Shown here piece by piece: positions 1,452-18,725 of a stretch of 64,000 nucleotides of DNA. Under the pieces are notes generated by a model that had not been told where the DNA came from, searched no databases, and saw only the letters and a list, made by a program, of their open reading frames with translations. The position numbers were made by a program, and so were the translations under genes. Every line of letters starts with the position of its first letter. Position 1 is the stretch's first letter. The stretch comes from Pseudomonas capeferrum (GTDB taxonomy: Bacteria; Pseudomonadota; Gammaproteobacteria; Pseudomonadales; Pseudomonadaceae), in assembly GCF_000731675.1 (NCBI RefSeq), contig NZ_JMIT01000001.1, forward strand, positions 374,712-438,711, written 5' to 3'.

Positions 1452-1467
1452 CGCAAGAGCTGTGCCA
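1452..1467 (-). promoter_or_regulatory. Sigma-54 (-24/-12) promoter of the permease operon
   Basis: The minus strand reads TGGCACAGCTCTTGCG, matching the TGGCACG-N4-TTGCW consensus at all the key GG and GC positions with correct spacing. The predicted start site is near 1441, about 28 bases before the ATG at 1413. Two palindromes of the kind bound by enhancer-binding proteins lie upstream (1510-1541). Confidence 0.8.
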
Positions 1468-1509
1468 GGCGGCCGGGGCCCGGAAATACGGCGGCTGAGG
1501 AAGGGGTGA

Positions 1510-1541
1510 TGCTGGAGCAGCACAGGGCTGCTGCTCCAGCA
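1510..1541. promoter_or_regulatory. Putative activator sites: paired TGCTG-N3-CAGCA palindromes
   Basis: TGCTG-GAG-CAGCA (1510-1522) and TGCTG-CTC-CAGCA (1529-1541) have centres 19 bp apart and lie about 75 and 94 bp upstream of the predicted start of the sigma-54 promoter at 1452-1467. The same palindrome recurs upstream of the other sigma-54 promoters in this window. The likely binder is a bacterial enhancer-binding protein, for example of the SfnR type, but no such gene is in the window. Confidence 0.6.
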
Positions 1542-1562
1542 GCAGGCTGCCAGCAACATGGG

Positions 1563-1592
1563 GTCTTCGCGGGTGAACCCGCGCCCACAAGG
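1563..1592. repeat. REP-like palindrome
   Basis: The sequence CTTCGCGGGTGAACCCGCG followed by CCCACAAGG is a short Pseudomonas REP-type hairpin (GCGGGT/ACCCGC stem). It sits between the end of the TonB receptor gene and the activator sites of the permease promoter, and could also act as a 3' stabiliser or terminator of the receptor transcript. Confidence 0.6.
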
Positions 1593-1593
1593 A

Positions 1594-4041
1594 TCAGAAG
1601 TCGTAACTGACGCTTGTGTAGTAGAACGCCCCCTGCGCGCCCTCGGGGCTGGTGATGGAATACTTCGGCACCCCATACAGCTGCGCGCCTTCCAGCTTGT
1701 CCGGGTGGCTGTCGAACAGGTTGATCGCGCCCGCCGACAAGGTCAGGCCCAGGTCAAAGCGGTACGACACATCCAGGTCGGTCACCCATTGCGCGCCGAA
1801 GGTCTGGTCCAGCGTCGGGTTGGCGGCGTTGCGGCTCTGCCACTCGCCATAGCGTCGCTGCGCCACGGTGACGCTCCAGCCGTCGTACAGCCAGTTGGCG
1901 CTCAAGGTCAGCTTGTCTTTGGGCGTACCGTCCTCGATCAGGCCCTGGGTGTTGCGGCCGATGATCTGGTTGCCGGGGATGCTGCCAACATCGTCCAGCC
2001 CGGTGATGCGGGTATTGTTGCGTGCATAGCCGCCATTGAAGTCCAGGCGCCCCCAGCGGCCCACGTCCAGTTGGTAGTGGCCGGCCAGTTCGAACCCGTC
2101 GGTGCGGGTGTCGGCGATGTTGCTGTAGAACGCTGCGCTCTGGATGTTGGCGTAGGGCGTACCCGCGAAGATCGGGCCGACCACCGAGGCCGGCAACTGG
2201 TCGGACAGGGTGATGCGGTTGTCGATGTCGATGCGGTAGGCATCGAGCGTGACCGAGGCATTCGGCAGCGGGCGCCAGACCAAGCCTACGGAGAAGTTGG
2301 TCGACTCCTCGGGCTTGAGCGACTTGCCGCCCAGCAGCGCTGCCTCCGGGCTGTCGGCGCGCAGGGTGCGTTGTTGCACCTCGACCCAGTTGCCACTGCC
2401 CGGCGGCTGCTCGACCACCTGCACACTGAACGACGACAGCCCGCTCTGCACCAGCGACGGTGCGCGGTAGCCGGTGCTGGCGCTGGCCCGTGCGGCGATT
2501 TGCGGGGTGAAATCGTAGCGCAGCGACAGCTTGCCGTTGGTGGTGTCGCCAAAGTCCGAATAATGCTCGCTGCGCACCGCGACGCCAGCCTGGAATTTCT
2601 CGGTCAGCTGGGCTTCGACATCGAAGTAGGCACCGATCACCCGGCGGTCGAGCGACACGGCATCGACCTGGGTGATGCCTGAGTAATAGCCCGGAATCCG
2701 TCGGCCAGAGACTGGGTCCAGGGTGTTGAACAGCGGCCCGTTGGACCAGCCGGCTGCATCACCTGCCGTCAGGTCGTAGTTTTCCTGGCGCCAGGCCAGC
2801 CCTGCCGAAACGGTCAGCGGCTTGAACAGCCAGTCGTTGGCGAAGTCGCGGGTCCAGTCCAGGGTCAGGTTGGTCTGGTCGGCCTCGCGGCGGCCGGTGT
2901 AGATCGTCGATGGGCTGGCGTTGCCCCAGCTGGGGTTGATCGCGTCGCGGTCGGTAGAGTCGACGCGGTTATTGCCGTAGTTCAGCGCCAGGTCGAAGTG
3001 GCCCAGGGTTTCGTCTTCGAAGCGCAGGCCGCCGGTGACGGCGTAGTCTTCCAGGCCATAACGGGTCACCGGCAGACGGCCGTCGGGGTAGCGCGTCAGG
3101 GCCACGCTGCCATAGTTGTTGCGCAGGGTGGTGGGCGGGTCGAAGAAGTTCTCGGCATCGGTGTTCTTGTGCGCGTAGGTGGCGAAGCCGTAGGCGCTGA
3201 GGCCCTCGGTGAGGCCCATCTCGGCGTTGGCGGTGAAGTTGTACTGGTCGGAAACGTTGCCCGAGCCCCAGCGCCAGTTGCGGTAGCGGTTGTTCTGCTC
3301 GCGCGGGGTGTCGATGCTGGTCGAGCCGGGGTAGAACAAGCGGTTGTCGTCACGGGTATCGCTGGCCGGGTCCTGGCTGCCGGCGTCGAAGGCCAGGGTC
3401 AGGAAGCCGTCGTTGGGCAGGGCAAAGCCTTTCCAGCCGCTGAGCTTGTGCTGCAGGCCGTCGCCCTTGTTGTAGCCGCCGAAGCGGTAGCCGGCGTTGC
3501 CGCCTTCATCGCGCGCCTTGAGCACGATGTTGATCACCCCGGCGATGGCGTCCGAACCATACTGGGCAGCAGCGCCATCGCGCAGGATCTCCACCCGTTC
3601 GATGGCTGACAGCGGGATCAGGCTGAGGTCCACCGCTGCGGCACCGCGGGCGTTGACCAGGCCCTGACGGGTGACGTTGGCGCTGGTGTGGCGGCGTTTG
3701 CCGTTGACCAGTACCAGCACCTGGTCGGAGGCCAGGCCGCGCAACGAGGCGCCCTGGGCGATGGAACCGGCGAATGCGCCCTGTGGCGACTGCGGGAAGC
3801 TGAACGACGGTGATAAGGCGGTGAGCGCGGCAGACAGGTCGCTGGCGCCGGTTTCCTGCAGTTTCTCGCCGCTGAGGACGTCGACCGGCGCGGCGCTCTG
3901 CAGGGCAGTGACGTCGCTGCGGTGGGTGCCGACCACGACCACGGTGTCGAGGTTGGCGGCGGGTTCGGCGGCGAATGCGGGCACGGCAAGGCTGCCGATG
4001 GCCAGGGCGATGGCGCTGGCCAAGGGGGTGTAGTGGGGCAT
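1594..4041 (-). CDS. TonB-dependent outer-membrane receptor
   Basis: This 815-residue protein has a signal peptide (MPHYTPLASAIALAIGSLAV, cleavage expected after AFA). A TonB-box-like DTVVVVG follows, then a plug domain (roughly residues 45-170, with VLVLVNGKRRH and IERVEILRDGAAAQYG) and a 22-strand barrel. The C-terminus, SVSYDF, ends in the aromatic residue needed for barrel assembly. It would import a large or scarce substrate using TonB energy. An AAGGAT ribosome-binding site precedes the ATG at 4041. It lies 72 bp downstream of a second receptor gene and is probably co-transcribed with it from the sigma-54 promoter at 6400-6415. The position in a desulfurization cluster suggests an organosulfur ligand rather than a siderophore; this is inference. 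Confidence 0.92.
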   Translation of the reverse strand: MPHYTPLASAIALAIGSLAVPAFAAEPAANLDTVVVVGTHRSDVTALQSAAPVDVLSGEKLQETGASDLSAALTALSPSFSFPQSPQGAFAGSIAQGASLRGLASDQVLVLVNGKRRHTSANVTRQGLVNARGAAAVDLSLIPLSAIERVEILRDGAAAQYGSDAIAGVINIVLKARDEGGNAGYRFGGYNKGDGLQHKLSGWKGFALPNDGFLTLAFDAGSQDPASDTRDDNRLFYPGSTSIDTPREQNNRYRNWRWGSGNVSDQYNFTANAEMGLTEGLSAYGFATYAHKNTDAENFFDPPTTLRNNYGSVALTRYPDGRLPVTRYGLEDYAVTGGLRFEDETLGHFDLALNYGNNRVDSTDRDAINPSWGNASPSTIYTGRREADQTNLTLDWTRDFANDWLFKPLTVSAGLAWRQENYDLTAGDAAGWSNGPLFNTLDPVSGRRIPGYYSGITQVDAVSLDRRVIGAYFDVEAQLTEKFQAGVAVRSEHYSDFGDTTNGKLSLRYDFTPQIAARASASTGYRAPSLVQSGLSSFSVQVVEQPPGSGNWVEVQQRTLRADSPEAALLGGKSLKPEESTNFSVGLVWRPLPNASVTLDAYRIDIDNRITLSDQLPASVVGPIFAGTPYANIQSAAFYSNIADTRTDGFELAGHYQLDVGRWGRLDFNGGYARNNTRITGLDDVGSIPGNQIIGRNTQGLIEDGTPKDKLTLSANWLYDGWSVTVAQRRYGEWQSRNAANPTLDQTFGAQWVTDLDVSYRFDLGLTLSAGAINLFDSHPDKLEGAQLYGVPKYSITSPEGAQGAFYYTSVSYDF

Positions 4042-4068
4042 GGGGATAATCCTTAGTAGGCGTTGTTG

Positions 4069-4105
4069 CCTTGCGTCGCGATGGGCCGCGCAGCGGCCCC
4101 TTTGT
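4069..4105. repeat. REP-like hairpin between the two TonB receptor genes
   Basis: The stem GGGCCGC (4083-4089) pairs with GCGGCCC (4093-4099) around a GCA loop, preceded by the REP-like TTGCGTCGCGATG. There is no T-tract for a clean terminator on the minus strand. It may be a partial attenuator or an mRNA-stability element between the two receptors. Confidence 0.5.
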
Positions 4106-4113
4106 GAGAAAAA

Positions 4114-6357
4114 TCAGAACCGGCTGGTGACACTCAGCCCGACCGTGCGCGGGTCGCCGTAGGTGATCACGTACTGCCCGGCAGTGCCGTTGGGCCGGCC
4201 ATGCACCTGGTAGCGGCGGTCGGTGAGGTTGTTGACGAAGCCGCTCACGCTCAACTTGTCATCAGGGCTGAACCAGGTCAGGCGGGCGTTGGCCAGGGTG
4301 TAGTGCGGCTGGCTGAGGGTCTCGTCGGCACTGCTCTGGCGGTCGGCGAGGAAGTATTCCTTGTCGCGGAAACTCACGTCGCCGCCGGCCACCAGCTTGC
4401 CGCCGACCTGAAGCGGTATGGTGTAGTCGGCACCCAGCGACACCACGTTGCGTGGCGAGCGCACGAAACTGTTGCCGCTGTAGTCACCGGTCACCGCGCC
4501 CGTGGTGGGGTTGGTGTTCTTGAAGTCGGTGTACTCGGTGTCGAGGAACGACACCGCCGCGCGCAGGTGCAGGCGGTCGGTCGGTTGGCCTTCGATCTCA
4601 AGCTCGGCACCTTTGACCGTACCTTTGGCACCGTTGGTCAAGGCGGTGGTGAGTACACCATTGTTGACCGTCAGCAGGTTCACCTGGATGTCCGAGTAGT
4701 CGTAGTAGAAGACGTTGGCGTTGACCGTCAGGCGGCGGTCGAACCACTCGGACTTCAGGCCAAGCTCGTAGGCATCCAGTTCTTCCGGGTCGACCGTGGT
4801 CAACTGCGCAAGGCTGGTCGACAGCCCGGTGTTGAAGCCGCCGGAGCGGAAGCCATGGGCGTAGCGGAAGAACACCCGCAGGTTGTCGTTGATGCGGTAC
4901 TCGGGGGTCAGGTCGTAGGTCCAGGCTTCCCAGGTCTTGTCTTCCTGGCGGTTGCCGTTGCTGCCCACGCCGCCCAGCGGGATCAGCGGGCCGTTGGCCG
5001 TGGCGCGGGTCAGTTGCACCAGGTCCAGGTCGATGTCCTTCTTCTCCTGGGTCCAGCGCAGGCCGCCGGTGACGCTGAAATCATCGGTGAAGTCGTAGGT
5101 CAGGTTGCCGAACAGCGCGTAGCTGTCGGTGCGGTGGTCATAGCCCAGGTCGCGCAACGCAGTGGTGCCAACCTGGTTCGAGCCGGTGCCGTTGGGCGTC
5201 GGGCCTGGGGTGACGATGCGCTGGGCCGAGCTGTCCAGGTCTTCATGGAAGTAGTGGGCGCCCGCCAGCCAGTGCAGCGGGCGGTCTTCCGGCGATGCCA
5301 GGCGCAGCTCCTGGGACCACTGGCGGTAGCTGTTGTCGGTGATTGCCGCGCCGTTGACTTCATAGGGGGTGTAGTCGGCGTCGCTGGTGGAGCGGTTGCG
5401 GATGTAGTCGTAGGCACTGATCGAGGTCAGGGTGTAATCGCCCAGGTACCAGTTGAAGGTCAACGACGCGCCGTCGTGGTCGAGGCGGTAGTCCTCGTTG
5501 ACGTTGAGCGCGATATCGCGGCCATTGGGGCGCTCGTAGCCGACGTTGTAATAACGGCCCACCGGCAGCGAGCCGTTGCTGCCGTCGCCCTTGAACTGGC
5601 GGCTGTGCAGCTTGAGCAGGGCGTCCAGGTTGGGGTTGAGCTGGGCCAGGAACTGCAGGCGGATCGCCTTTTTGTTCACGTCGCCATAGGTGTTGCCGTC
5701 GAAATCGTTGTTCTGGAAGCCATCGCGTTCTTCGGAATACAGCGATACCCGCCCGGCCAGCTTTTCGTCCACCAGCGCGCCACCGATGGCACCGGTGACG
5801 ATGCGCTCGTTCTTGCTGCCGAAGCCGACGGTACCGTAGCCGTCGGTGTCGAAGGCCGGCTTTTTCGAGATGACATTGACCGCACCGGCGGTGGTGTTCT
5901 TGCCATACAAGGTGCCCTGCGGCCCGCGCAGGATCTCGATGCGTTCAAGGTCGAACAGGGGGCCGCCCCCGGCGATCGGTGCATTGAGGTAGACGTCGTC
6001 GGCGTAGATGCCCACCGGGAAGACCGTCGCCGCACCGGTATCACCGGTGCCCAGGCCGCGGATGTACCAGCGCGGGCGGCCATCGCCGTCGGGGTTCTTG
6101 GCCGAGGCGTTGGGCACGAAGGTGGTGATGTCGCCCATCGAGCGCACGCCATCGGCGGTGATGCTGGTGCCCTTGATCGCCGACACGGCGACGGGCACTT
6201 CCTGCAGGGTCTGCTCGCGATGCTGGGCGGTGACGGTGACGGTTTCCAGGGCTGGCTCGGCCTTGGTGTCTTCGCCGGCGGCGACGGCTTGGCCGCCGGT
6301 GCTGGCCAGCAGCAGTGCAAGGCTGATCTGGCGGGCTAGTGGATGGCGCTGGTGCAT
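4114..6357 (-). CDS. TonB-dependent outer-membrane receptor
   Basis: This 747-residue protein begins MHQRHPLARQISLALLLAST, a signal peptide with the cut expected near AVAAG. I preferred the ATG at 6357, with a GGGGAG site 8 bases upstream, over a longer frame that would cross the sigma-54 promoter. A TonB box (LETVTVTAQ), a plug domain (QEVPVAVSAI, then WYIRGLG and IEILRGPQGTLYGKNTTAG) and a barrel ending in VTSRF follow. The plug motif with GKNTTAGAVNVISKKP is typical of the large family that includes many non-siderophore receptors. It is the first gene after the sigma-54 promoter at 6400-6415 and lies directly downstream of the desulfinase-like pair. Confidence 0.92.
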   Translation of the reverse strand: MHQRHPLARQISLALLLASTGGQAVAAGEDTKAEPALETVTVTAQHREQTLQEVPVAVSAIKGTSITADGVRSMGDITTFVPNASAKNPDGDGRPRWYIRGLGTGDTGAATVFPVGIYADDVYLNAPIAGGGPLFDLERIEILRGPQGTLYGKNTTAGAVNVISKKPAFDTDGYGTVGFGSKNERIVTGAIGGALVDEKLAGRVSLYSEERDGFQNNDFDGNTYGDVNKKAIRLQFLAQLNPNLDALLKLHSRQFKGDGSNGSLPVGRYYNVGYERPNGRDIALNVNEDYRLDHDGASLTFNWYLGDYTLTSISAYDYIRNRSTSDADYTPYEVNGAAITDNSYRQWSQELRLASPEDRPLHWLAGAHYFHEDLDSSAQRIVTPGPTPNGTGSNQVGTTALRDLGYDHRTDSYALFGNLTYDFTDDFSVTGGLRWTQEKKDIDLDLVQLTRATANGPLIPLGGVGSNGNRQEDKTWEAWTYDLTPEYRINDNLRVFFRYAHGFRSGGFNTGLSTSLAQLTTVDPEELDAYELGLKSEWFDRRLTVNANVFYYDYSDIQVNLLTVNNGVLTTALTNGAKGTVKGAELEIEGQPTDRLHLRAAVSFLDTEYTDFKNTNPTTGAVTGDYSGNSFVRSPRNVVSLGADYTIPLQVGGKLVAGGDVSFRDKEYFLADRQSSADETLSQPHYTLANARLTWFSPDDKLSVSGFVNNLTDRRYQVHGRPNGTAGQYVITYGDPRTVGLSVTSRF

Positions 6358-6399
6358 GGTGAATCTCCCCGTATGTAAAGCGTTGTTGGGGAGAGCTAG

Positions 6400-6415
6400 A
6401 GCAGGGACTGTGCCA
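6400..6415 (-). promoter_or_regulatory. Sigma-54 (-24/-12) promoter of the TonB receptor genes
   Basis: The minus strand reads TGGCACAGTCCCTGCT, differing from the TGGCACG-N4-TTGCW consensus only at minor positions. Transcription would begin near 6390, leaving a leader of about 33 bases to the ATG at 6357. The TGCTG-N3-CAGCA palindromes at 6504-6544 lie 115-150 bp upstream of the start. Confidence 0.78.
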
Positions 6416-6503
6416 GGTTGATAAATTATTGATTTATATAGGTTATTTGATTTGATTTGTAGGTTGTTGCCGATCTGGCAGCAGTGGGGTGCTTGGCGGG
6501 TGC

Positions 6504-6544
6504 TGCTGGGGCAGCAGCTGCTCATCAGGAATGCTGGGGCAGCC
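6504..6544. promoter_or_regulatory. Putative activator sites: TGCTG-N3-CAGCA palindromes
   Basis: A perfect site, CTGCTG-GGG-CAGCAG (core 6504-6516), and a one-mismatch site, TGCTG-GGG-CAGCC (6532-6544), have centres 28 bp apart. The spacing and location resemble enhancer-binding-protein sites for the sigma-54 promoter at 6400-6415. An AT-rich stretch (6420-6470) between sites and promoter could help DNA bending. Confidence 0.6.
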
Positions 6545-6561
6545 AAGCGGCCCCCCTGCAA

Positions 6562-7620
6562 TCACACCGCCAACCGCGAAGTCGAGCCGATCACACTCTC
6601 CAATACCCTGAAGTCGATCCATTCGCGCACGTCGAACCGGCGCGGTATGAACCCCCACCTGAACAAGAACTCGGTAAAGTCCTGCAACGCGTCGATCGAA
6701 CGCCCATCCAGCGTCGTGCGCAAGCGCCGGTGGGCATCATCACCGTAAGCTGCCGCTACCCAGTACTCGCTGGTGTTCAGTTCGCGCGCCAGAAAACGCC
6801 GGGTCTCCTCCGGGTTGGCCCAGGCCCACTGCTCGGTGCGCAGCACGGTGTCGACCAGTGTGCGGCTGGCATCGAAGTGCTCTTCCAGCAGGTGCCTGTC
6901 CACGGTCAAGGTGCGCGGCGTACCGTTGTTGCTGCGGATCAACGGGTCGGGGTGGCTGCCGGTGTCGACCACCACCCGCAGGCCGAACTCGTGGGCCAGG
7001 TGTACCGCGTGGGCGCCCTTGAGGAAGATCGCGTCGATGTCGCCGCGCAGCAGGCCGATCAGCTCATTGTTGCGCCGGCTGAAGCGGCTGGTGTCCAGGC
7101 TCACTTCGGCGCCGTACAGGTGCTGCTTGGCATCGTCGCTGTAGGTGCCGCCGTAGGGGTAGTCGACCCGTTCGACATCAGCCACGCTCAGGCCTTCGAG
7201 CTTGAGCGCGTTCTCCAGCCCGCGCAGGGCCTGCGCGCGGGTGAAGTCGATCTGCACGTTGGCCCACTTGGGCAGGCCGAAGCGGCGGTTTTTCAGGTCG
7301 CGGATACTGCGCACACCGCTTTCTTCGGTGGTCAGAATCAGCTGCACCTCGTCGCTCCACGACAGCCCCAGCACCCGGGTTTCGACCCCGCTGGCATAGG
7401 CCCAGATCGCCGGGATGTTGCCACCGTGGCGCACGGAGTTCTGCAGGTGATGGTCGTAGTGGGCTTCGCGCACCTCCCGTTCGCTGGACTCGCGTAACGA
7501 CTGGATGTTGGTGCCGAACGGCGCAAAAGCTTCGGCCAGGCGCCCGGATTGCACGGCAATGCCGAGCCCGGTGGGCACAGGGCTGTGGGTGTACCAGAGA
7601 GTTTCCAGTGGCTTGGTCAT
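6562..7620 (-). CDS. DszB-like desulfinase homologue with Ser in place of the catalytic Cys
   Basis: This 352-residue protein has the periplasmic-binding-protein fold of the SsuA/ThiY/DszB group but no signal peptide (it begins MTKPLETLWYTHSPVP), so it should be cytoplasmic. In DszB (2'-hydroxybiphenyl-2-sulfinate desulfinase) the active residues are Cys27, His60, Arg70 and Gly73. Here His54, Arg64 and the R-x-G-G motif (VRHGGNIP) are kept, but the Cys position is Ser13 (codon AGC at 7584-7582). The neighbouring paralogue has Cys at the same place. The ATG overlaps the stop of that paralogue (ATGA at 7620-7617), so the pair is translationally coupled. It may be a catalytically dead partner, a binding protein, or an enzyme using other chemistry. 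Automatic annotation would probably call it an ABC substrate-binding protein. Confidence 0.8.
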   Translation of the reverse strand: MTKPLETLWYTHSPVPTGLGIAVQSGRLAEAFAPFGTNIQSLRESSEREVREAHYDHHLQNSVRHGGNIPAIWAYASGVETRVLGLSWSDEVQLILTTEESGVRSIRDLKNRRFGLPKWANVQIDFTRAQALRGLENALKLEGLSVADVERVDYPYGGTYSDDAKQHLYGAEVSLDTSRFSRRNNELIGLLRGDIDAIFLKGAHAVHLAHEFGLRVVVDTGSHPDPLIRSNNGTPRTLTVDRHLLEEHFDASRTLVDTVLRTEQWAWANPEETRRFLARELNTSEYWVAAAYGDDAHRRLRTTLDGRSIDALQDFTEFLFRWGFIPRRFDVREWIDFRVLESVIGSTSRLAV

Positions 7621-8681
7621 GGGGTAATGGGCTTCCTGTCCAGGGGGGTGGGTGCCAGCAAGTGGTCCAGCGGTTGGCGGTCGATCCAGTCGCGTACCTC
7701 GAAACGGTTCGGGATGAAGCGCCAGCGTTTGAGAAATTCGACAAAATCTTGCAGGGCGTCGATGGCCTGCTCCTCCAGCCGGGTGCTCAGGCGCAAGTGG
7801 GCATCGGCGCCGTAAGCGACCGTGACCCAGTATTCGCTGCTGTTGGTTTCCCGGGCCAGGTAGCGGCGGGTTTCGTCGGGGTGCTGATGGGCCCAGCGCT
7901 CGGCGCGCAGTACTGACGACAGCAAGGTGCGCACCACCTGCGGGTGCTGCGCCAGCAGGTGGCTGTCCACCGCCAAGGTACGCGGCGTGCCGTTGTTGCT
8001 GCGGATCAGCGGGTCGGGGTGGCTGCCGGTGTCGATCACCGTGTGCAAGGCAAAGGCATGGGCCAGTTGCACGGCGCTGGCGCCCTTGAGGAAGATGGCA
8101 TCGACCTCGCCGCGCAGCAGCCCGGCCAGCTCCAGGTTGCGGCCTTCGCTTTGGCTGCTGGATACCGGTGTACCGGCCACATTGCGCACCGGGCGGTCGC
8201 TGAAGGTGCCGTCGTAGTGGTAGTTGACCAACGCCACGTCGCCCACTTGCAGGCCTTCGAGCTTCAGGGCGTTTTCCAGCCCACGCAAGGCCTGGGCGCG
8301 GGTGAAGTCGATCTGCGCCGAGGCCCAGTCGGGCAGGCCGAAGCGGCGCCCCTTGAGGTCTTTGACCGTGTGGATGCCACTGTCTGGGCGGGTCAGGATC
8401 AACTGCGCCTCATCGGCCCAGGACAGCCCGATCACGCGTGTGTCCCGCCCTTGGGCACGGGCCCAGATCGCCGGAATGCTGCCACCGTGGCGCACCGAGT
8501 TGCGCAGGCTGTGGTCGAAGTGCGATTCGCGCACCGCCTGCTGGTCGGCCTCGCGCAGCGACTGCACCTGGGTGCCGAGGCTGGCCAGGTCGTCCTGCAG
8601 CCAGCCTTGCTGCACGGCGATGCCCAGGCCGGTGGGTACTGGGCAGCGGGTATACCACAGGGTGTCGAGGGGGTTGCTCAT
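7617..8681 (-). CDS. DszB-like sulfinate desulfinase (Cys/His/Arg triad intact)
   Basis: This 354-residue protein (start MSNPLDTLWYTRCPVPTGLG) lacks a signal peptide. It carries Cys13 in the TRCPVPT motif, His54 in SHFDH and Arg64 in VRHGGSIP. These match DszB Cys27/His60/Arg70, and the ten-residue His-to-Arg spacing is identical. DszB hydrolyses an aromatic sulfinate to sulfite and the phenol or hydrocarbon. The predicted role here is therefore release of sulfite from an alkyl or aryl sulfinate made by the upstream SsuD-like monooxygenase. The gene starts 19 bp after that monooxygenase and overlaps the Ser-variant paralogue by four bases. An alternative, a cytoplasmic or Sec-independent binding protein, is less likely given the intact triad. 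Confidence 0.8.
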   Translation of the reverse strand: MSNPLDTLWYTRCPVPTGLGIAVQQGWLQDDLASLGTQVQSLREADQQAVRESHFDHSLRNSVRHGGSIPAIWARAQGRDTRVIGLSWADEAQLILTRPDSGIHTVKDLKGRRFGLPDWASAQIDFTRAQALRGLENALKLEGLQVGDVALVNYHYDGTFSDRPVRNVAGTPVSSSQSEGRNLELAGLLRGEVDAIFLKGASAVQLAHAFALHTVIDTGSHPDPLIRSNNGTPRTLAVDSHLLAQHPQVVRTLLSSVLRAERWAHQHPDETRRYLARETNSSEYWVTVAYGADAHLRLSTRLEEQAIDALQDFVEFLKRWRFIPNRFEVRDWIDRQPLDHLLAPTPLDRKPITP

Positions 8682-8700
8682 GTGCTTGCTCCGGTCGGCT

Positions 8701-9852
8701 TCAGGCGTTGGCCTTCAAGGGGGTGGTGGCCGCAGCCTGCTGTACCAGCGGCAGCACTTCCTGGCCAATGCGCAAGGCCTCTTCCAGGTGCGGGTTGGCG
8801 GCCAGGATGAAGGTGCTGAAACCGGCATCACGGTATTCGGCCAGGCGCTCGGCGATGTGCTGGTGGCTACCCACCAGGCCCACGGTCGGGCCGGGTTTGG
8901 CCTTGGCGAAACCGGCCCACAGGTTGCGTGCCAGGACCAACTCGTCGAACCCTTGCAGGTGTTGGTGGTAGGCCGCCTGGCGCGCGCCGCCGACCGAGTC
9001 GGAGCCGCTGACGAAGCCCTTGGCAGAGGCGCTGGCCTTGCCTTCCAGGCGCTCGAACTGCTGGCGCAGTTCACGCCAGGCCTGCTCTTCGGTCTCGCGG
9101 GCGAACAGGTCGACGCGCAGGCCGAAGCGCACCGTGCGCCCTTGTTTGTCGGCCAGCTCGCTGACCCGCTCGATATGGGGTTTGAGCTTGTCGATCGGCT
9201 CGGCCCAGTTCAGGTACACATCGGCGTGGCGTGCAGCCACCTCCAGCGCGGCATCGGAAAACCCGGAGAAGTACACACCCGGCTTGCGTTCGTGTTGCAG
9301 GCCCGCTGGCAGGCTGCCGTGTTCCAGGCGATAGATGTCGCCTTCGTAGGAGAACGTGTCCTGCTGCCACAGGCCCTGGATCACATCGAGGAATTCGCCG
9401 GTGCGCTTGTAGCGCAGGTCGTGTTCGAGGAAGTCGCCGTTGGCCCGCTGGCTGGCCGGGTTGCCGCCGGTGATGATGTTCCAGTCCAGCCTGCCGCCGC
9501 TCAGGTTCTGCAGGATGGCGGCCTGTTGCGCGGCATAGGCGGGGAGGGTCCAGGTGGCCTGGAACGCGATCAGAAAGCGTATGCGGCGGGTTTCGCGGGC
9601 CAGCGCGGCGGCGGCGATCCACGGCTCGGGGCCGGTGGGCAGCAAGGCCCCCTCGAAGCCCGCCAGTTCAGCGGCCTTGGCCACCTGGGCGATGTAGTCG
9701 ATGTAGGTGAAACCATCGCTGTCGCCATTGGGCAGGCGACCGGGGGCGATGTTGCCGGGGCGGTGGTGGGGGTTGCCGCGGTTATGGCGGTCGGTGGACA
9801 ACTGCGGGCCATCGGTGCCCAAGGGCAGGCGCCAGAAGAATTCGGTGGTCAT
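8701..9852 (-). CDS. SsuD/DszA-like FMNH2-dependent monooxygenase
   Basis: This 383-residue luciferase-like (LLM class) protein begins MTTEFFWRLPLGTDGPQL, close to the SsuD start pattern (FWFLPTHGDG). Other SsuD-family landmarks are RIRFLIAFQ, the NLSGGRLDWNIITGGNP segment and GFSTFILAANPHLEEALRIG near the end. Such enzymes use reduced FMN and O2 to cleave C-S bonds of sulfonates (SsuD) or sulfones (DszA). The flavin reductase partner is not in the window. The ATG at 9852 has CAGGAG upstream; a longer frame to 10068 was rejected because it crosses the sigma-54 promoter. It is the first gene of the operon with the two DszB-like genes, which suggests that its product is a sulfinate. Confidence 0.9.
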   Translation of the reverse strand: MTTEFFWRLPLGTDGPQLSTDRHNRGNPHHRPGNIAPGRLPNGDSDGFTYIDYIAQVAKAAELAGFEGALLPTGPEPWIAAAALARETRRIRFLIAFQATWTLPAYAAQQAAILQNLSGGRLDWNIITGGNPASQRANGDFLEHDLRYKRTGEFLDVIQGLWQQDTFSYEGDIYRLEHGSLPAGLQHERKPGVYFSGFSDAALEVAARHADVYLNWAEPIDKLKPHIERVSELADKQGRTVRFGLRVDLFARETEEQAWRELRQQFERLEGKASASAKGFVSGSDSVGGARQAAYHQHLQGFDELVLARNLWAGFAKAKPGPTVGLVGSHQHIAERLAEYRDAGFSTFILAANPHLEEALRIGQEVLPLVQQAAATTPLKANA

Positions 9853-9894
9853 GGGGGCTCCTGAAGGGGGCGGTTGTGCGGATGGATAGGCAGG

Positions 9895-9910
9895 TGCAAC
9901 CGCTGTGCCA
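9895..9910 (-). promoter_or_regulatory. Sigma-54 (-24/-12) promoter of the SsuD-like/DszB-like operon
   Basis: The minus strand reads TGGCACAGCGGTTGCA, an almost perfect sigma-54 promoter (TGGCACR-N4-TTGCA). The predicted start is near 9885, 33 bases before the ATG at 9852. This leader length equals that of the TonB receptor promoter at 6400-6415. Confidence 0.85.
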
Positions 9911-9967
9911 TGCACGGCGGCAGCCTTATGGGGCAGGGGTTTGCGCAGAGGGCAGAGGGCCGGGTGC

Positions 9968-10009
9968 TGCTGTGGCAGCAATCGGTAAGCAGTGGATGCT
10001 GGGGGAGCA
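9968..10009. promoter_or_regulatory. Putative activator sites: TGCTG-N3-CAGCA palindromes
   Basis: CTGCTG-TGG-CAGCA (core 9968-9980) and TGCTG-GGG-GAGCA (9997-10009, one mismatch) have centres 29 bp apart, about 90 and 118 bp upstream of the predicted start. The arrangement closely resembles that at 6504-6544. Confidence 0.6.
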
Positions 10010-10083
10010 GCATGAGAGAGCCTGCGAAGTGCAGGGGCATTTGAGGTCATGGGGAAGCCAGGTCGCATGGCTTTGGATTTTTA

Positions 10084-10324
10084 GCGCCTGGGAGATCGAG
10101 CGCCGCCCGCGCGGCGCTTCGCGGCGCAAGGCCGCTCCCACATTTGTTTCGGGCCAGTGAGTCCTGTTATATAGGCGCGCGCCCCCTTGTCTGTACGACG
10201 CTATATCGAGGCGGGCGCCAAGGGGCCGCGCGCCAATGCTTCAGGCATAACTGGCCTGAAACAAATGTGGGAGCGGCCTTGCGCCGCGAAGCGCCGCGCG
10301 GGCGGCGCTCGATCTCACAGGCGC
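10084..10324. repeat. Palindromic ~240-bp repeat (paired REP arms), copy A
   Basis: Two inverted arms (left 10084-10150, right about 10258-10324) contain the REP-like GGGAGCGGCCTTGCGCCGCG and its complement. They flank a central segment of about 105 bp (GGGCCAGTGAGTCCTG ... CAGGCATAACTGGCC). The central segment recurs almost unchanged, in the opposite orientation, at 23998-24231, and in diverged form at 31555-31706. It is a BIME-like paired REP element, probably of the REP/RAYT type. It lies just downstream of the exporter gene at 10355 and could act as a terminator for it. Confidence 0.85.
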
Positions 10325-10354
10325 TACGAAATTCAAGGCATGCCAGCCGCTACA

Positions 10355-12202
10355 TCACACCAGCGCCCCTGCAACAACCTCCCCGGCACTGCGCAAATAC
10401 GCCTCATACAGCGCCGCATAAGCCCCCCCACGCTCCATCAGCTCAGCATGCACGCCGTGCTCCACCACCTGCCCATGCCGGACCACGGCAATACGGTCGG
10501 CATCGCGGATGGTCGCCAACCGATGGGCAATGATGATCGCTGTGCGGCCCTGGCACAGCCGGCGCAGGGCTTGCTGGATGCGCCGTTCGGTATGCACATC
10601 CACCGCTGAAGTGGCTTCGTCCAGCACCAGCACCGCCGGGTCGGCCAGGTAGGCGCGCACCAGGCACACCAGCTGGCGCTGGCCGTGGCTGAGGTGCGCG
10701 CCCAGCGGGCCGACTTCGGTGTGGTAACCCTGGGGCAGCCGTTCGAGCACCTCGTCGGCCCCCAGCTCGCGGGCTGCCGCTACCAGCCGTGCAGCGTCGG
10801 CACCGGGGGCGGCAAGGCGCAGGTTGTCGAGGATGCTGCCGCTGAACAGCACGTTGTCCTGCAATACCACACCGACGTTGCGACGCAGGTCATGCTGGGC
10901 CAGTTCGCGCAAGTCGATGCCGTCCAGTTTCACGGCGCCGCTTTGCACCTCGTAGAACCGCGTCAGCAACTGCACCAGGGTGCTCTTGCCATGCCCGGAC
11001 GGGCCGACGATGGCCAGGACTTCGCCGGCGCGGATATGCAGGTCGAGCCCGTCGATCACCGGGCGCGGGCTGTTCGGCGCATAGGCAAAACCCACGTGTT
11101 CGAAGTCCACCTGGCCGCGTGCCCTGGCCAGCGGGCGGGGCGAGGGTGGGTCAAGGACCTGTGGCCGGGTGTCCAGCAGCAGGAAGATCCGCTGCGCCGA
11201 GGCACTGCCGGTGGCATAGCGTTCGAACAGGTCCGACAGCTCTTGCAGCGGCCCCAGGAACAGGAACACATAGAACAGGCTCTCGGCCACCTGGCCGACG
11301 CTGACCTTGCCTTCGGCCAGGCCATGGCCGCCGACCAGCAGCAACACCGCCATGCCGGCCGTGCTCAGCAGTGCGGTGAACGGCGCAAACCAGCCGGCGC
11401 GCAGGCTGCCGTGTATCAGTGCCTGGTTGAAGTCCTCCAGCAGGCGCCGGTAGCGCGCCTGGTTGGTCTGTTCCTGGCCGCACTGCTGAATCAACCGCAC
11501 CCCGCTCACGCTCTCGACCAAGTGGGCGGTGAAACGGCTGCGCTGTTCGGCGACCTTGGCCCAGTTGCGTTGCGAAACCCGTTTGAAACGCCAGGTAGCC
11601 AGGGCCAGCAGCGGCACCGTGGCGGCCAGGCTGTAGAAGAAGCTTGGCTCGATACGCCACAGCATCACCGCTGCCAGGCCGCAGCGCAGCAGGGCACCGA
11701 GCAGCTCCGGCGGGCCTTGCACCAGCAGCGGCTCCAGAGCATCCACATCACGATCGGCGCGCGAGATGATGCGCCCGGCGCGCGTCTGGTCGAAGTAGCT
11801 CACCGACAGCGCCTGCACATGGGCGAATACCTTCACCCGCAGGTCGTTGAGCACGCGGATCGCCGCCCGCCCGGCAATGAACTGCGACACCCCCGCCAGC
11901 AGGAAGCGCCCCAGCCAGCTGGCCGCCAGACCCAAGCCCAGCCACAGCACCAGGCGTTCGTCCAGCAACCAGTGATCGGCGCTGGGTACCAGGCCCTTGT
12001 CGAGCAGCTCGCGCACGAACCAGGGCCGCAGAAACACCGTGAACACCAGCAGCAGTTCGATGCCGATCACTACCAGGATCTGCCGGCGAATCGGCCGCAG
12101 CAGTGGTAGCAGGCGGTGCAACATGCCACGGTCCAAGGCCTGGCGCGCCAGATGTTGTTCGATCTCGATGTCGCTGGGGGGCTTGTTGCGCGTATCAGTC
12201 AT
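10355..12202 (-). CDS. ABC exporter half-transporter (membrane domain + ATPase), second subunit
   Basis: This 615-residue type IV exporter half has an N-terminal six-helix membrane domain (residues about 40-330) and a C-terminal nucleotide-binding domain. The latter has Walker A VGPSGHGKST, a degenerate signature LSHGQ instead of LSGGQ, Walker B VLVLDEATS and the switch His (IIIAHRLAT). I chose the ATG at 12202 (MTDTRNKPPSD), which overlaps the end of the partner gene by 8 bases and is preceded by a GGGGAT site. Together with the upstream half it forms an asymmetric heterodimer (see the findings). The substrate is unknown; possible cargo is a desulfurized carbon skeleton or a lipid/peptide. 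Confidence 0.9.
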   Translation of the reverse strand: MTDTRNKPPSDIEIEQHLARQALDRGMLHRLLPLLRPIRRQILVVIGIELLLVFTVFLRPWFVRELLDKGLVPSADHWLLDERLVLWLGLGLAASWLGRFLLAGVSQFIAGRAAIRVLNDLRVKVFAHVQALSVSYFDQTRAGRIISRADRDVDALEPLLVQGPPELLGALLRCGLAAVMLWRIEPSFFYSLAATVPLLALATWRFKRVSQRNWAKVAEQRSRFTAHLVESVSGVRLIQQCGQEQTNQARYRRLLEDFNQALIHGSLRAGWFAPFTALLSTAGMAVLLLVGGHGLAEGKVSVGQVAESLFYVFLFLGPLQELSDLFERYATGSASAQRIFLLLDTRPQVLDPPSPRPLARARGQVDFEHVGFAYAPNSPRPVIDGLDLHIRAGEVLAIVGPSGHGKSTLVQLLTRFYEVQSGAVKLDGIDLRELAQHDLRRNVGVVLQDNVLFSGSILDNLRLAAPGADAARLVAAARELGADEVLERLPQGYHTEVGPLGAHLSHGQRQLVCLVRAYLADPAVLVLDEATSAVDVHTERRIQQALRRLCQGRTAIIIAHRLATIRDADRIAVVRHGQVVEHGVHAELMERGGAYAALYEAYLRSAGEVVAGALV

Positions 12203-13970
12203 GGTCGATCCCCAGCAGGTCGCGGTAGTGGGCATTGTTCGCGCTCAGCTCGGCATGGCTGCCACTGGCGCTGATGTGGCCGTTTTCCAGCATCAGCACG
12301 CGGTCGGCCAACAGCAGGGTCGAAAGGCGGCTAGTGATCAGCAGCAAGGTCGGCCCCTGGCCTGTGCTGCCGCGCAGGCGGCGGATGTTGTGCAGCACCT
12401 GGCGCTCGCCCAGGGCGTCCAGCGCGCTGGTGGCGTCGTCCAGGCAGAGGATGTCGGGCGCGCCGAGCAGTGCCCGGGCCAGGCACAGGCGCTGGCGCTG
12501 GCCGCCGGAGAGGGTCACGCCGCGGTCGCCCAGCGGGGTGTCGAGGCCGTGGGGCAGGCGTTCGAGTACGTCCTCTGCCGCCGCCAGGCGCAGCCCTTCG
12601 CGCAGTTGTACAGGGCTGGCTTGCGGGGCCGCCAGGCGCAGGTTGGCGGCCAGGCTGTCGGAGAACAGAAAGCTTTCTTGAGGCAGTACCTGCACGCGCC
12701 GCCGCAAGGCGGCCAGGTCGAGCTCACGCACATCGTGCCAACCTGCAGCGTCACTGCCGACCAGCACAGCGCCGCCCTGCACGTCGGCCAGGCGCGGCAG
12801 CAGGCTGGCCAGCAGGCTCTTGCCGGTGCCCGTGGCGCCGACCAGTGCCACCACCTCGCCGGGCTGCAGGGTCAGCGAACAGTCATGCAGGATGTCGCGC
12901 TCACCCGCTGGCGCACCGACCCGTACCTGGGCCAGTTTCAGCCCCAGCGGCCCCGGGGGCAGGGTGGCTTGGCCGCCGACGATCGCCGGGCGCTCGTCCA
13001 GCAACTGCCAGATACGTTCGGCACTGGCACGGGCGTCGGCGAAGGTCTGCATGACCCGGCCGATGCCTTCGATACGGAACACCAGCGTGGTGGCCACCAG
13101 CAGCGAGGTGACCAGCTCGCCGATGCCCAGCGTACCCGCTGCCACACAATGGGCGCCGTACACCAGGATCCACACATGCCCCAGTGCCACCACCGCCTGT
13201 GGCAGCGGAATGCGCGAGCTGGCGTAGGCCAGGGCTGCCCGTGCGTGGCCGGTGAACACGTTCACTTGGCTGGCGAAACGCTCGATGCGCTGGCCCTCCA
13301 GACCGAATGCCTTGATCACCCGTACACCACCGATGCCTTCGGCCAGGTCCTGGCTGACCTGGTCGTAGGCGGCGCCTACCGCTCGGTCAAGGCTGACCAG
13401 GCGATCGGTCTGCACGACGAACAGCCACAGCCCGGCCCCGGTCAGCAACAGTGGCACCAGGCCGAGCAGCGGGTCGTACCCACTCAGCAGCCCCACGGCC
13501 GCCATCACCACCAGGGGTGTTTCGATGATCTGCCGCCAGAAGGTGATCAGCGCATCACGCACCTTGTCGGCGTCGCGGGTGGTGCGGGTTACCAACTCAC
13601 CCATGCCGTGGCGCCAGTGGTAGCCCAGGTGCAGGCGCTGCACCTGGGTCAGGATACGTTCACGCAGGCGCGTCAGCAGGGCCTGGCTGAGCACCAGCGA
13701 CAGCACCGCTGCCGCGTACTGCAGCAGGCCACGGCCCAGCGCGATGGCCAGCAGCAGCCACAGCCAGTGCCAGGCCACGGCGGCGTCCAGGCCGCCATCA
13801 GCCAGGCGCACCACGGCACGGCCGGCGCTGACATCGTCCACGGCGTGGCCGATCAGCCATTGCTGCCAGACCAGGCCAAGGTTGCCAGCGATGTACAACG
13901 TGGTGACAAGCGCAAAGCGCCAGGGCATTTCACGATAAATGGCCAAGGCACGAAGAAGCGGATGGTTCAT
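12195..13970 (-). CDS. ABC exporter half-transporter (membrane domain + ATPase), first subunit
   Basis: This 591-residue type IV ABC exporter begins MNHPLLRALAIYREMPWRFA. Six hydrophobic helices span about residues 20-310. The ATPase domain has Walker A VGATGTGKSL, a canonical LSGGQRQR signature, and Walker B ILCLDDATS. The usual catalytic Glu after Walker B is Asp, and the switch position is LITSRLS with Ser instead of His. These changes mark the degenerate ATP site of heterodimeric exporters such as TM287/288. The downstream half supplies the complementary degenerate signature. It is encoded on the same strand as the DszC/SfnB-like gene (14060-15292), separated from it by a REP-like hairpin. 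Confidence 0.9.
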   Translation of the reverse strand: MNHPLLRALAIYREMPWRFALVTTLYIAGNLGLVWQQWLIGHAVDDVSAGRAVVRLADGGLDAAVAWHWLWLLLAIALGRGLLQYAAAVLSLVLSQALLTRLRERILTQVQRLHLGYHWRHGMGELVTRTTRDADKVRDALITFWRQIIETPLVVMAAVGLLSGYDPLLGLVPLLLTGAGLWLFVVQTDRLVSLDRAVGAAYDQVSQDLAEGIGGVRVIKAFGLEGQRIERFASQVNVFTGHARAALAYASSRIPLPQAVVALGHVWILVYGAHCVAAGTLGIGELVTSLLVATTLVFRIEGIGRVMQTFADARASAERIWQLLDERPAIVGGQATLPPGPLGLKLAQVRVGAPAGERDILHDCSLTLQPGEVVALVGATGTGKSLLASLLPRLADVQGGAVLVGSDAAGWHDVRELDLAALRRRVQVLPQESFLFSDSLAANLRLAAPQASPVQLREGLRLAAAEDVLERLPHGLDTPLGDRGVTLSGGQRQRLCLARALLGAPDILCLDDATSALDALGERQVLHNIRRLRGSTGQGPTLLLITSRLSTLLLADRVLMLENGHISASGSHAELSANNAHYRDLLGIDHD

Positions 13971-14002
13971 GAAAAGGCTCGATCAAAAGCGACACGGCCC
14001 CT

Positions 14003-14046
14003 GTAGGAGCGGCCTTGCGTCGCGATGGGGGCGCAAAGCGCCCCCC
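14003..14046. repeat. REP-like palindrome / possible terminator
   Basis: CTGTAGGAGCGGCCTTGCG is followed by a hairpin GGGGGCGC-AAA-GCGCCCCC (about 14026-14045). It lies between the DszC/SfnB-like gene and the exporter genes on the same strand and may separate or attenuate their expression. Confidence 0.65.
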
Positions 14047-14059
14047 CGGGTTCAAAAGC

Positions 14060-15292
14060 TCAACGGCGCGTCGCGCCCTGCGCTTCCTTGGCATTGAGCA
14101 CAGCGGTGTACTCCCCCGGATCGGCACCATTGAGGTAATAGTTACCCACGTTATGCAGCCGCCAGCGAATCGGGTCATGGGTGGTATGCACCCGCGCGTT
14201 TCGCCAGAATCGGTCAAGGTTCCACTTGCTCAACGAAGCACTGGCCCCCAGCAGCGAAAACAGGTCGCTGGCGATCTTCAGCGACGCGCCATCGGAATGC
14301 GCACGGGCAGTCGCCACCGAGAGAATCAGCTCGTCCTGCAGGGCCTTGTCCTCCGGGTCACGCTCATGCGCGTCGAACACCCGCGCAGCATCACGCAGCA
14401 CTGACTCGGCCCCGCGCAGGGCCACCGCGTACTCGCCTATCTGGCGAATGACATGCGGCTCGTCGCTGGCGCGCTCGACGCCACTTTCCACCCAGGCCCG
14501 CGCATGCTCGCGCAGGTAGTCGACGCCCGCCTGCAGCGCGCCGGCCGCGATGCCGGTGTCGATGGCCGCGTGGAGAATCTGCGGGAAGGTCAGGCCGGTG
14601 CGCTTCATCGGGCCGCTGCGCCGCGACAGGTAGCGCTCGTCGAGCACGATTTCGTCGAAGTTCACCGTGCCGCTCACCGAGTTCTGCTGGCCGAAGGCCT
14701 GCCAGTCGTCGACCAGGGTCAGCCCGGGAGTGTCGCGGTGCAGCAGGACACCAACGCCGCCGTCCTCGCTGGCGGCGGTCAGCGAAATCCAGTCGGCGAG
14801 GTAAGAACCGGTGGAGTAGAACTTGCTGCCATTGAGCACCAGCTTGCCATCGGCGCGGCGCTCGACGCGGGTCTTGAGGGCGAACTTGTTCTTGCCGCCG
14901 ACCTCGGCCAGGGCATTGCCAAAGCGCTTGCCGGCCACCACGTCGGCGATCAGGCGGTCACGTACTTCGCTGGCGTAGCCGGTGAAAATACCGCGCAGCA
15001 TCACGTTGTGAATCTGCAGCAACTGGCCGACGCCGCCATCGGCAATGGAGATCAGGCGCACGGTTTCGACGAGGGTTTGCACCGAGGCACCCAGGCCGCC
15101 GAACTCGGCCGGTACGCCAATGGCGGTGAGGCCGCTGCTGGACAGCAGTTCGGCCTGGCGGCGCGGCAGTTGGCCGTTGTTGGCCGGGTCGGCGGCGAGT
15201 ACCGCGATCTGTGCGGCGACCTCGCGGGCAGCAGCGATGGCTTCGGCCTCGCTGGTCAAGCGGTGGGTGGGGCTGGGTTCTATGGCGCTCAT
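14060..15292 (-). CDS. DszC/SfnB-like flavin-dependent monooxygenase (acyl-CoA dehydrogenase fold)
   Basis: This 410-residue protein begins MSAIEPSPTHRLTSEAEAIA. It has the three-part acyl-CoA dehydrogenase fold: an N-terminal helical domain, a middle beta domain (LNGSKFYSTGSYLADWISLTA, shown here by its first and last residues only: LNGSK...ISLTA) and a C-terminal helical bundle (VHTTHDPIRWRLHNVGNYYL ending). Within this fold, SfnB and DszC use reduced flavin and O2 rather than CoA thioesters. DszC oxidises a thioether to the sulfone, and SfnB is linked to dimethyl sulfone/methanesulfonate use in Pseudomonas. I preferred the start at 15292 because the longer frame enters a hairpin in the leader. 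It has its own sigma-54 promoter at 15421-15436. The exact substrate is unknown. Confidence 0.85.
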   Translation of the reverse strand: MSAIEPSPTHRLTSEAEAIAAAREVAAQIAVLAADPANNGQLPRRQAELLSSSGLTAIGVPAEFGGLGASVQTLVETVRLISIADGGVGQLLQIHNVMLRGIFTGYASEVRDRLIADVVAGKRFGNALAEVGGKNKFALKTRVERRADGKLVLNGSKFYSTGSYLADWISLTAASEDGGVGVLLHRDTPGLTLVDDWQAFGQQNSVSGTVNFDEIVLDERYLSRRSGPMKRTGLTFPQILHAAIDTGIAAGALQAGVDYLREHARAWVESGVERASDEPHVIRQIGEYAVALRGAESVLRDAARVFDAHERDPEDKALQDELILSVATARAHSDGASLKIASDLFSLLGASASLSKWNLDRFWRNARVHTTHDPIRWRLHNVGNYYLNGADPGEYTAVLNAKEAQGATRR

Positions 15293-15337
15293 GGAAAGGT
15301 CTCGGTTTGCTTGAGGGGCCAGTGCGCCTGCTGCGCG

Positions 15338-15387
15338 GGTAAACCGCCCCCACAGGGCGTGCACGGCCTCTGTGAAGGCGGTTTACC
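15338..15387. repeat. Long inverted repeat in the leader of the DszC/SfnB-like gene
   Basis: GGTAAACCGCC (15338-15348) pairs with GGCGGTTTACC (15377-15387), with further pairing inside (CCACAGG / CCTCTGTG). It resembles a REP element. It lies between the sigma-54 promoter (predicted start about 15410) and the ATG at 15292, so it would be part of the transcript leader. Confidence 0.65.
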
Positions 15388-15420
15388 TGCGGATGGCGAC
15401 ACCGCGGTCAAATGCCCTTG

Positions 15421-15436
15421 AGCAATATCTTTGCCA
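15421..15436 (-). promoter_or_regulatory. Sigma-54 (-24/-12) promoter of the DszC/SfnB-like gene
   Basis: The minus strand reads TGGCAAAGATATTGCT, with GG and GC at the correct 12-base spacing and a perfect TTGCT -12 element. The predicted start is near 15410, giving a leader of about 118 bases that contains the inverted repeat at 15338-15387. Confidence 0.72.
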
Positions 15437-15477
15437 CCCCTCGCCAGGCCCCATTCCACGTGGCCCTCGCCAGCTTT

Positions 15478-15548
15478 TGCTGCCCCAGCAGCAGTGCCCC
15501 TGCTGGTCTGGCAGCAGCCCGCCCGCAATCCTGCTCCGTGCCCAGCAG
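15478..15548. promoter_or_regulatory. Shared activator region between divergent sigma-54 promoters
   Basis: A perfect TGCTG-CCC-CAGCA palindrome (15478-15490) is followed by two half-site pairs with wider spacers: TGCTG-N6-CAGCA at 15501-15516 and TGCTC-N6/7-CAGCA near 15532-15548. The first is about 73 bp upstream of the minus-strand start (15410) and 143 bp upstream of the plus-strand start (15627). One set of sites could therefore serve both sigma-54 promoters. Confidence 0.6.
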
Positions 15549-15600
15549 CCAGGGCCTGCGAGCGACTACGAGTTCCGCGTAAATCAAGGCCTCCAGCGGT

Positions 15601-15616
15601 TGGCACGCACGCTGCA
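15601..15616 (+). promoter_or_regulatory. Sigma-54 (-24/-12) promoter of the 15650-23976 operon
   Basis: TGGCACGCACGCTGCA matches the TGGCACG-N4-TTGCW consensus with one change. The predicted start is near 15627, 23 bases before the ATG at 15650. No other strong promoter is evident before the seven co-directional genes that follow. Confidence 0.82.
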
Positions 15617-18715: not shown

Positions 18716-18725
18716 GGAGAGGGTG

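Follow-up and report, generated by a model that had tools for sequence, protein, structure and literature searches.

A 64,000-nucleotide stretch of Pseudomonas capeferrum DNA (contig NZ_JMIT01000001.1, positions 374,712 to 438,711; hereafter the window) contains five promoter-like sites at which a sigma-54-type -24/-12 element is paired with an upstream palindrome. Together with a sixth predicted promoter to the right of the window, they very probably form, as judged from the DNA sequence, one SfnR2-type sigma-54 regulon for organosulfur uptake and desulfonation. The original prediction attributed the five promoters to a single SfnR-like enhancer-binding protein encoded outside the window. This appears to be the best-supported reading and can be refined to the SfnR2 branch of the family; the candidate gene (L006, C1:455244-456305) does lie outside, 16.5 kb past the window's right edge. 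What began as a remark on motifs now includes six predicted promoters, an operator with a defined form, and a likely regulator.

Paired Promoter Signature

The five -24/-12 elements are all present where the original prediction had placed them, namely TGGCACAGCTCTTGCG (1452..1467), TGGCACAGTCCCTGCT (6400..6415), TGGCACAGCGGTTGCA (9895..9910), and TGGCAAAGATATTGCT (15421..15436) on the minus strand and TGGCACGCACGCTGCA (15601..15616) on the plus strand. They precede, respectively, the genes of an SsuC-like permease, TonB receptor 2, a flavin monooxygenase, an SfnB-like enzyme, and binding protein 3. In all five, the GG and GC dinucleotides are separated by 10 bases, in line with the sigma-54 criterion, and the promoters score 20.7-21.7 of a maximum of 21.7 in an ad hoc scoring. 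An rpoN gene was found in the genome. Taken alone, the -24/-12 pattern is no more frequent in the window than expected (40 matches versus 53.5, with two mismatches allowed) and therefore provides no evidence on its own.

The palindrome TGCTG-N3-CAGCA was said to occur once or twice at each element, and exact copies were found upstream at 1510 and 1529, 6504, 9968, and 15478, the last being common to the divergent pair 15421/15601. We defined a composite promoter as an exact TGCTG-N3-CAGCA followed, after a gap of 30-150 bp, by TGGCA-N7-TGC. The genome-wide motif search that had been suggested was then run over 5.94 Mb on both strands, with reversed patterns as controls. Exact composites were confined to the five promoters already named (four at a gap of 30-90 bp and one at 91-150 bp), and the reversed patterns gave 0 matches in the same genome. 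The paired signature at the five promoter-like sites is far beyond chance in this genome. Relaxing the -24 to TGG[CT]A added none to the composites of the window and its two adjoining stretches.

It could be argued that a sigma-70 regulator or a repressor uses the palindromes as its operators and that the -24/-12 matches are coincidental, which would agree with the lack of enrichment of the -24/-12 pattern alone. We assign this explanation a next to negligible probability, because the exact composites are restricted to these promoters and because the -24/-12 letters are invariant in the aligned monooxygenase promoters of seven genomes, the remainder of which drifts. By eye, the proximal palindromic site of these promoters is kept in six of the seven genomes and the distal site in four.

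Operator Spacing

Palindromes with at most one mismatch number 20 in the window versus 6.4 expected, a count that 0 of 100 shuffles reached, and the exact TGCTG-N3-CAGCA is found at 72 places genome-wide versus 18 for the reversed pattern. Most of the N3 matches that were listed around promoters are nested inside a 16-bp inverted repeat, TGCTG-N6-CAGCA, which occurs at 67 places in this genome versus 9 for its control. The six exact N6 sites in the window (1529, 6501, 9965, 9997, 15478, and 15501) all lie at the five promoters; none of the three N3 palindromes away from these promoters (7945, 17379, and 29682) has the N6 form. A check covering 50 of the 67 genomic N6 sites revealed a sigma-54-like element 20-160 bp downstream of all seven that lie in the 80 kb between 1529 and the regulator, and of 0 of the 43 elsewhere. 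We also scanned 80 related loci (159 real and 70 control elements) for TGYTG-Nk-CARCA before sigma-54-like elements. The highest counts were obtained for k=6 (96) and k=3 (72), with 0-7 at each other k between 0 and 12 and 0 when the sequences are read backwards; the counts are not independent, since the loci are related.

The second peak is nearly as high as the first, as would be expected if the N3 palindrome were the true operator and the N6 frame a by-product of CTG/CAG triplet repeats. Furthermore, at least two promoter sites are exact for N3 without being exact for N6 (1510 here and one in the relative G085). We nevertheless consider this explanation unlikely, because T/A replaces C/G on at least one side in 23 of the 96 sites at k=6 and in only 1 of the 72 at k=3. 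Since such swaps are tolerated at N6 and almost never at N3, the N6 frame seems to vary like a functional inverted repeat. Similarly, the palindromes at 7945, 17379, and 29682 are followed only by weak sigma-54-like sequences (scores 16.0-18.4 of 21.7), in contrast to the N6 sites of the cluster. At the sfnG promoters of relatives, TGTTG/CAACA pairs are found at N6 only (20, versus 0 at any other spacing from 0 to 12). TGCTG-N6-CAGCA thus appears to be the better-supported operator. What stands of the original prediction is the presence of palindromes, exact at N3 at all five promoters; the N3 spacing probably does not, as N6 fits the comparative data.

The permease promoter has an exact N6 site at 1529..1544, 61 bp upstream of its -24 element, and a second with one mismatch at 1507..1522, overlapping the exact N3 palindrome at 1510. 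At the monooxygenase promoter, an exact site at 9965..9980 lies 54 bp upstream of the -24 element, and another at 9997..10012 (TGCTGCTCCCCCAGCA, not exact N3) lies 32 bp from its neighbor. The divergent pair has in common the exact sites 15478..15493 and 15501..15516 (the latter not exact N3) and a site with one mismatch at 15532..15547. The distance between neighboring sites of one promoter is either 18-23 bp (15478/15501 in this genome and -89/-69 among relatives) or 29-34 bp (9965/9997 in this genome and -101/-69 and -132/-98/-69 among relatives), which corresponds to about two or three turns of the helix. Between the exact site at 6501..6516 and the promoter of TonB receptor 2 lies AATCAATAATTTA, which resembles the integration host factor (IHF) consensus; among the six promoters scanned, no such pattern was found at the other five.

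Candidate Regulator

The L006 protein has 354 aa from its likely ATG and carries an AAA+ domain (PF00158, 238.5 bits) with Walker A GETGTGKE at residue 49, GAFTGA at 96, and Walker B GGTLFLDE at 114. No sensor domain is present: no Pfam family matches N-terminal to the AAA+ domain, and Walker A is reached already at residue 49. The activator is therefore likely to be controlled by its own abundance. In the C-terminal part, SRNIVRARLEKIGE is kept in 74 of the 80 loci of the SfnR2 branch. Scanning the genome with PF00158 (Sigma54_activat) gave 26 matches, 23 strong and three weak, and L006 is the only one of the 23 strong activators to be a full SfnR-type protein, with a short N-terminus, Walker A, GAFTGA, and Walker B.

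The L006 gene is divergent from a gene for an SsuA-like binding protein. The intergenic region contains an exact N6 site, TGCTGCTCCAGCAGCA (C1:455109), and a -24/-12-like sequence, TGGCATGTATTTCGCT, directed toward the binding protein, and the sixth predicted promoter would accordingly face away from the regulator gene and into the SsuA-like gene. Activation of the regulator gene by its own product from this adjoining site was considered and dropped, since composites point toward the divergent gene at 51 of the 80 loci and toward the regulator at 2.

A different enhancer-binding protein, from among the 21 remaining activators, which are longer, might instead recognize the sites, leaving the SfnR2 homologue to control something else; 23 strong Sigma54_activat domains in the genome speak for such a possibility. 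It seems quite improbable to us, however. The PF00158 scan revealed no other activator gene in the cluster, and L006 carries the site at its own border. Of 16 SfnR2-branch loci, 12 have an N3 palindrome in the 300 bp preceding the regulator, compared with 0 of 6 SfnR-branch loci, and composite presence follows the regulator branch (see below). In addition, the genes next to the sites resemble organosulfur genes, which to judge by paper titles are the remit of SfnR and SfnR2.

The only other short SfnR-like protein of the genome is the paralogue L023 (C3, 581585-585061), which is 53% identical to the L006 activator. GAHSGT replaces GAFTGA in L023 and the C-terminal DNA-binding part is absent, and for these reasons it was rejected as a rival activator. 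By eye, its gene adjoins one for a MetQ-like lipoprotein. Many same-genus genomes contain L023-like matches that end before the C-terminal part, and the protein is possibly a non-activating partner or regulator.

As judged by sequence comparison, L006 falls in the SfnR2 (PA2359/Sfa3) branch, outside the SfnR/SfnR1 clade. Members of its branch have SRNIVRARLEKIG near the C-terminus and are 79-96% identical to it in the 80 loci and at least 84% in a second genome sample. The P. aeruginosa PA7 counterpart (361 aa, 81% identity) belongs to the same branch. Proteins of the SfnR/SfnR1-type branch are 60-64% identical to L006 and have a different C-terminal helix, SRNVTRTRLIKIG; no gene of the SfnR branch was found in this genome. 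In a tree rooted for drawing only, with bootstrap values that have not settled, an unresolved order within the SfnR2 branch, and a very long branch for the degenerate L023, the SfnR/SfnR1-type rows group together in a clade (98/100) from which L006 is excluded. The SfnR/SfnR1 label is given because the PA7 member follows an msuC-like gene; SfnR1 is PA2354 in a table of PMC8274868.

By eye, the PA7 counterpart gene lies between type VI secretion system (T6SS)-like and msu-like genes. A table of PMC9602442 names PA2359 sfnR2; in passages of PMC3804575, Sfa3 is an activator of 361 aa that belongs to the H3-T6SS locus, and its role is termed intriguing. We equate the PA7 protein with PA2359/SfnR2 and Sfa3 because position and length match. 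The regulon proposed here would also be in keeping with a role of the activator annotated as Sfa3 in the sulfur metabolism of P. aeruginosa.

In the mechanism we propose, sulfate limitation would lead the L006 activator to bind one to three of the 16-bp repeats located 40-110 bp upstream of the -24 element. At more distant sites the DNA would bend, possibly through IHF. The GAFTGA loop and the ATPase would then open the sigma-54 polymerase, resulting in a joint rise of TonB receptors, SsuA-like proteins, the ABC permease, SsuD/SfnG-like monooxygenases, and the SfnB-like enzyme. The sequence elements, their restriction to these promoters in this genome, their conservation, and the families of the genes are observed; binding, activation, and the sulfur signal are all parts that we infer. 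According to their titles, P. putida SfnR papers of 2003, 2005, and 2007 reportedly deal with sigma-54 activation of sulfur genes, and a 2019 paper by Lundgren reportedly with SfnR2 in dimethyl-sulfide-related use. The link to sulfate limitation is drawn from the SfnR titles and from proteins that are raised in sulfur starvation. The latter are SfnG, MsuCDE, and SfnR1 in sulfur-starved P. aeruginosa, as given in excerpts of PMC12581299. If the proposal is true, the SfnR2 regulon extends from dimethyl-sulfide-related use to a TonB-linked sulfonate island, which is present in several related Pseudomonas genomes.

Conservation in Relatives

Composites with a gap of 30-90 bp were sought in 194 genomes, including this one, and at least one was found in 33. 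Among the 119 same-genus genomes, composites go with the regulator branch: 12 of the 17 SfnR2-branch carriers have one (G076 being counted as a carrier from a partial match alone) versus 18 of the 102 others, and in 10 of these 12 carriers the matches lie at the sulfur cluster.

Nine cluster stretches and fifteen regulator loci were used to determine which genes follow the composites; G043, which has no SfnR2 branch, and the regulator locus of G032, where the match starts at residue 19, were left out. They gave 36 composite promoters, one of them the sixth promoter of this genome, and 32 precede best matches to genes of this genome (58-96% identity, 100% for its own). The regulator-side binding protein accounts for nine of these (its own included); binding protein 3, the monooxygenase, and TonB receptor 2 for six each; SfnB for three; and the permease, with the same element in G077, and binding protein 2 for one each. 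The remaining 4 of the 36 have no match to genes of this genome.

Several observations weigh against the proposed regulon. In the search of relatives, the reversed control matched in one genome, G002, and 5 of the 17 regulator carriers have no composite at the 30-90 bp gap. Conversely, the 18 non-carrier genomes have at least one match each, many of which may be coding sequence. The single match of G032, TGCTGGTGCAGCATCAT, is common to several non-carriers and looks like coding sequence, and the two matches of G073 are on contigs other than that of the regulator. The flanks of 17 of the 80 SfnR2-branch loci contain no N6 composite; a TGGTA -24 rescues four of these loci, four have only one-mismatch sites, and nine have nothing. 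In this genome, the -12 of the sixth promoter is weak (TGGCATGTATTTCGCT), and no Pfam helix-turn-helix family matches the C-terminus of L006 above the cut-off (HTH_30, 22.1 bits versus 27). Finally, all NCBIfam product matches of the genes under the promoters are below the curated cut-offs (for the SfnB-like enzyme, 387.9 bits versus 430.9), and substrates are therefore not named.

Operator Variants and Related Systems

The sfnG loci of related genomes have an N6 palindrome before the -24/-12 element in 20 of 30 cases and none in the other 10. Of their 22 N6 sites, 20 are TGTTG/CAACA (the T form) and two TGCTG/CAGCA (the C form). In SfnR-gene neighborhoods, a composite with a TGG[CT]A -24 was found in 7 of 13, all of the T form. 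Among the 96 N6 sites of SfnR2 loci, two are of the T form and 21 are mixed. This genome has 8 TGTTG-N6-CAACA sites, none of them with a sigma-54-like element nearby. In a further group of SfnR-like genes (the C group, L240-L246, 52-55% identity), a composite was found in 1 of 7 loci.

Paralogue-specific operators were initially considered because the C-terminal helices differ. A simple rule in which SfnR2 reads TGCTG and SfnR reads TGTTG was rejected, as the separation is not clean. Besides the mixed forms, there is the case of PA7, in which this SfnR2 helix goes together with an adjacent TGTTG site. In G059 and G090, TGTTG sites that have sigma-54-like elements are not confined to sfnG and msuE-like genes: in the SfnR2 neighborhood of G059 or G090, T-form composites are also present at TonB receptor 2 and at a gene resembling those of binding proteins. 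A broader scheme, which we regard as rather doubtful, is that Sfa3/SfnR2, the activator of the T6SS locus, might be the sole organosulfur master in Pseudomonas lacking SfnR, with a reach from the outer-membrane TonB receptor to the desulfonating monooxygenase, acting through a C-form enhancer, and that the paralogues might divide the sulfur genes where both are present. On this scheme, the C-form TGCTG-N6-CAGCA would differ from the T-form TGTTG-N6-CAACA of SfnR by one symmetric base. No SfnR operator was found in the literature searched, a set from which three primary SfnR/SfnR2 papers were missing. With the regulon proposed here, TGYTG-N6-CARCA upstream of a -24/-12 element could serve as a usable rule for mapping sulfur-starvation regulons elsewhere.

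P. aeruginosa SfnR2 resembles the regulator described here in being a sensor-less activator with GAFTGA and SRNIVRARLEKIG near its C-terminus, and in adjoining msu-like genes that have a sigma-54-like element with TGTTGCCCGGGCAACA upstream. Its location is different: the P. aeruginosa gene lies between T6SS and msu genes, whereas the homologue here is in a sulfonate-uptake/monooxygenase island with TonB receptors. The sites here are mainly TGCTG, and TGTTG is found at the P. aeruginosa SfnR2 locus. In PA7 (L226, 11690), TGTTGCCCGGGCAACA starts 99 bp upstream of TGGTACGGCCCTTGC, before the msu-like genes, and is likely to be an SfnR-family site. SfnR/SfnR1 of P. putida DS1 are of the same family as L006, with about 62% identity, but they belong to the separate branch with the C-terminal helix SRNVTRTRLIKIG, and the promoters of sfnG and msuE-like genes associated with SfnR/SfnR1 are mostly TGTTG-N6-CAACA. 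Compared with the known ssu/tau/sfn organosulfur sets, the island has similar SsuA-, SsuC-, SsuD/SfnG-, and SfnB-like products; it differs in that paralogous binding proteins, monooxygenases, and TonB receptors occur together.

Genes under the Promoters

The genes downstream of the promoters, identified mostly with family models, likely form a program of organosulfur uptake and oxidative desulfurization. On the minus strand, the SsuC-like permease of an ATP-binding cassette (ABC) transporter (661..1413, likely start 1413) is followed by an ABC ATPase gene beyond the left end of the window. TonB-dependent receptor 2 (4114..6357, minus) is likely followed by TonB-dependent receptor 1 (1594..4041, minus), before which no composite promoter was found. 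The SsuD/SfnG-like monooxygenase, a luciferase-like flavin mononucleotide enzyme (8701..9852, minus), is followed by SsuA-like substrate-binding proteins 2 (7617..8681, minus) and 1 (6562..7620, minus). The SfnB-like oxidoreductase (14060..15292, minus) has acyl-CoA dehydrogenase domains. On the plus strand, SsuA-like substrate-binding protein 3 (15650..16705) is followed by an aldolase-like gene and then by a second SsuD-like monooxygenase (17528-18715).

Between SfnB and the monooxygenase are two genes for MsbA-like ABC exporters (10355-13970, minus); as they are on the strand of SfnB, they might be cotranscribed from the promoter at 15421. Similar sets of monooxygenases, a TonB receptor, and Opp/Nik-type binding proteins are found in the window at 17528-23976 (plus) and, between the window and the regulator, at L042 7318-13880 (minus). 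No composite promoter was found before either set. Just left of the ABC transporter genes is a frame of 2421 codons (L043 42-7307, C1:366041-373306, plus), in which, by eye, a peroxidase-type domain is followed by glycine/aspartate-rich (RTX-like) repeats.

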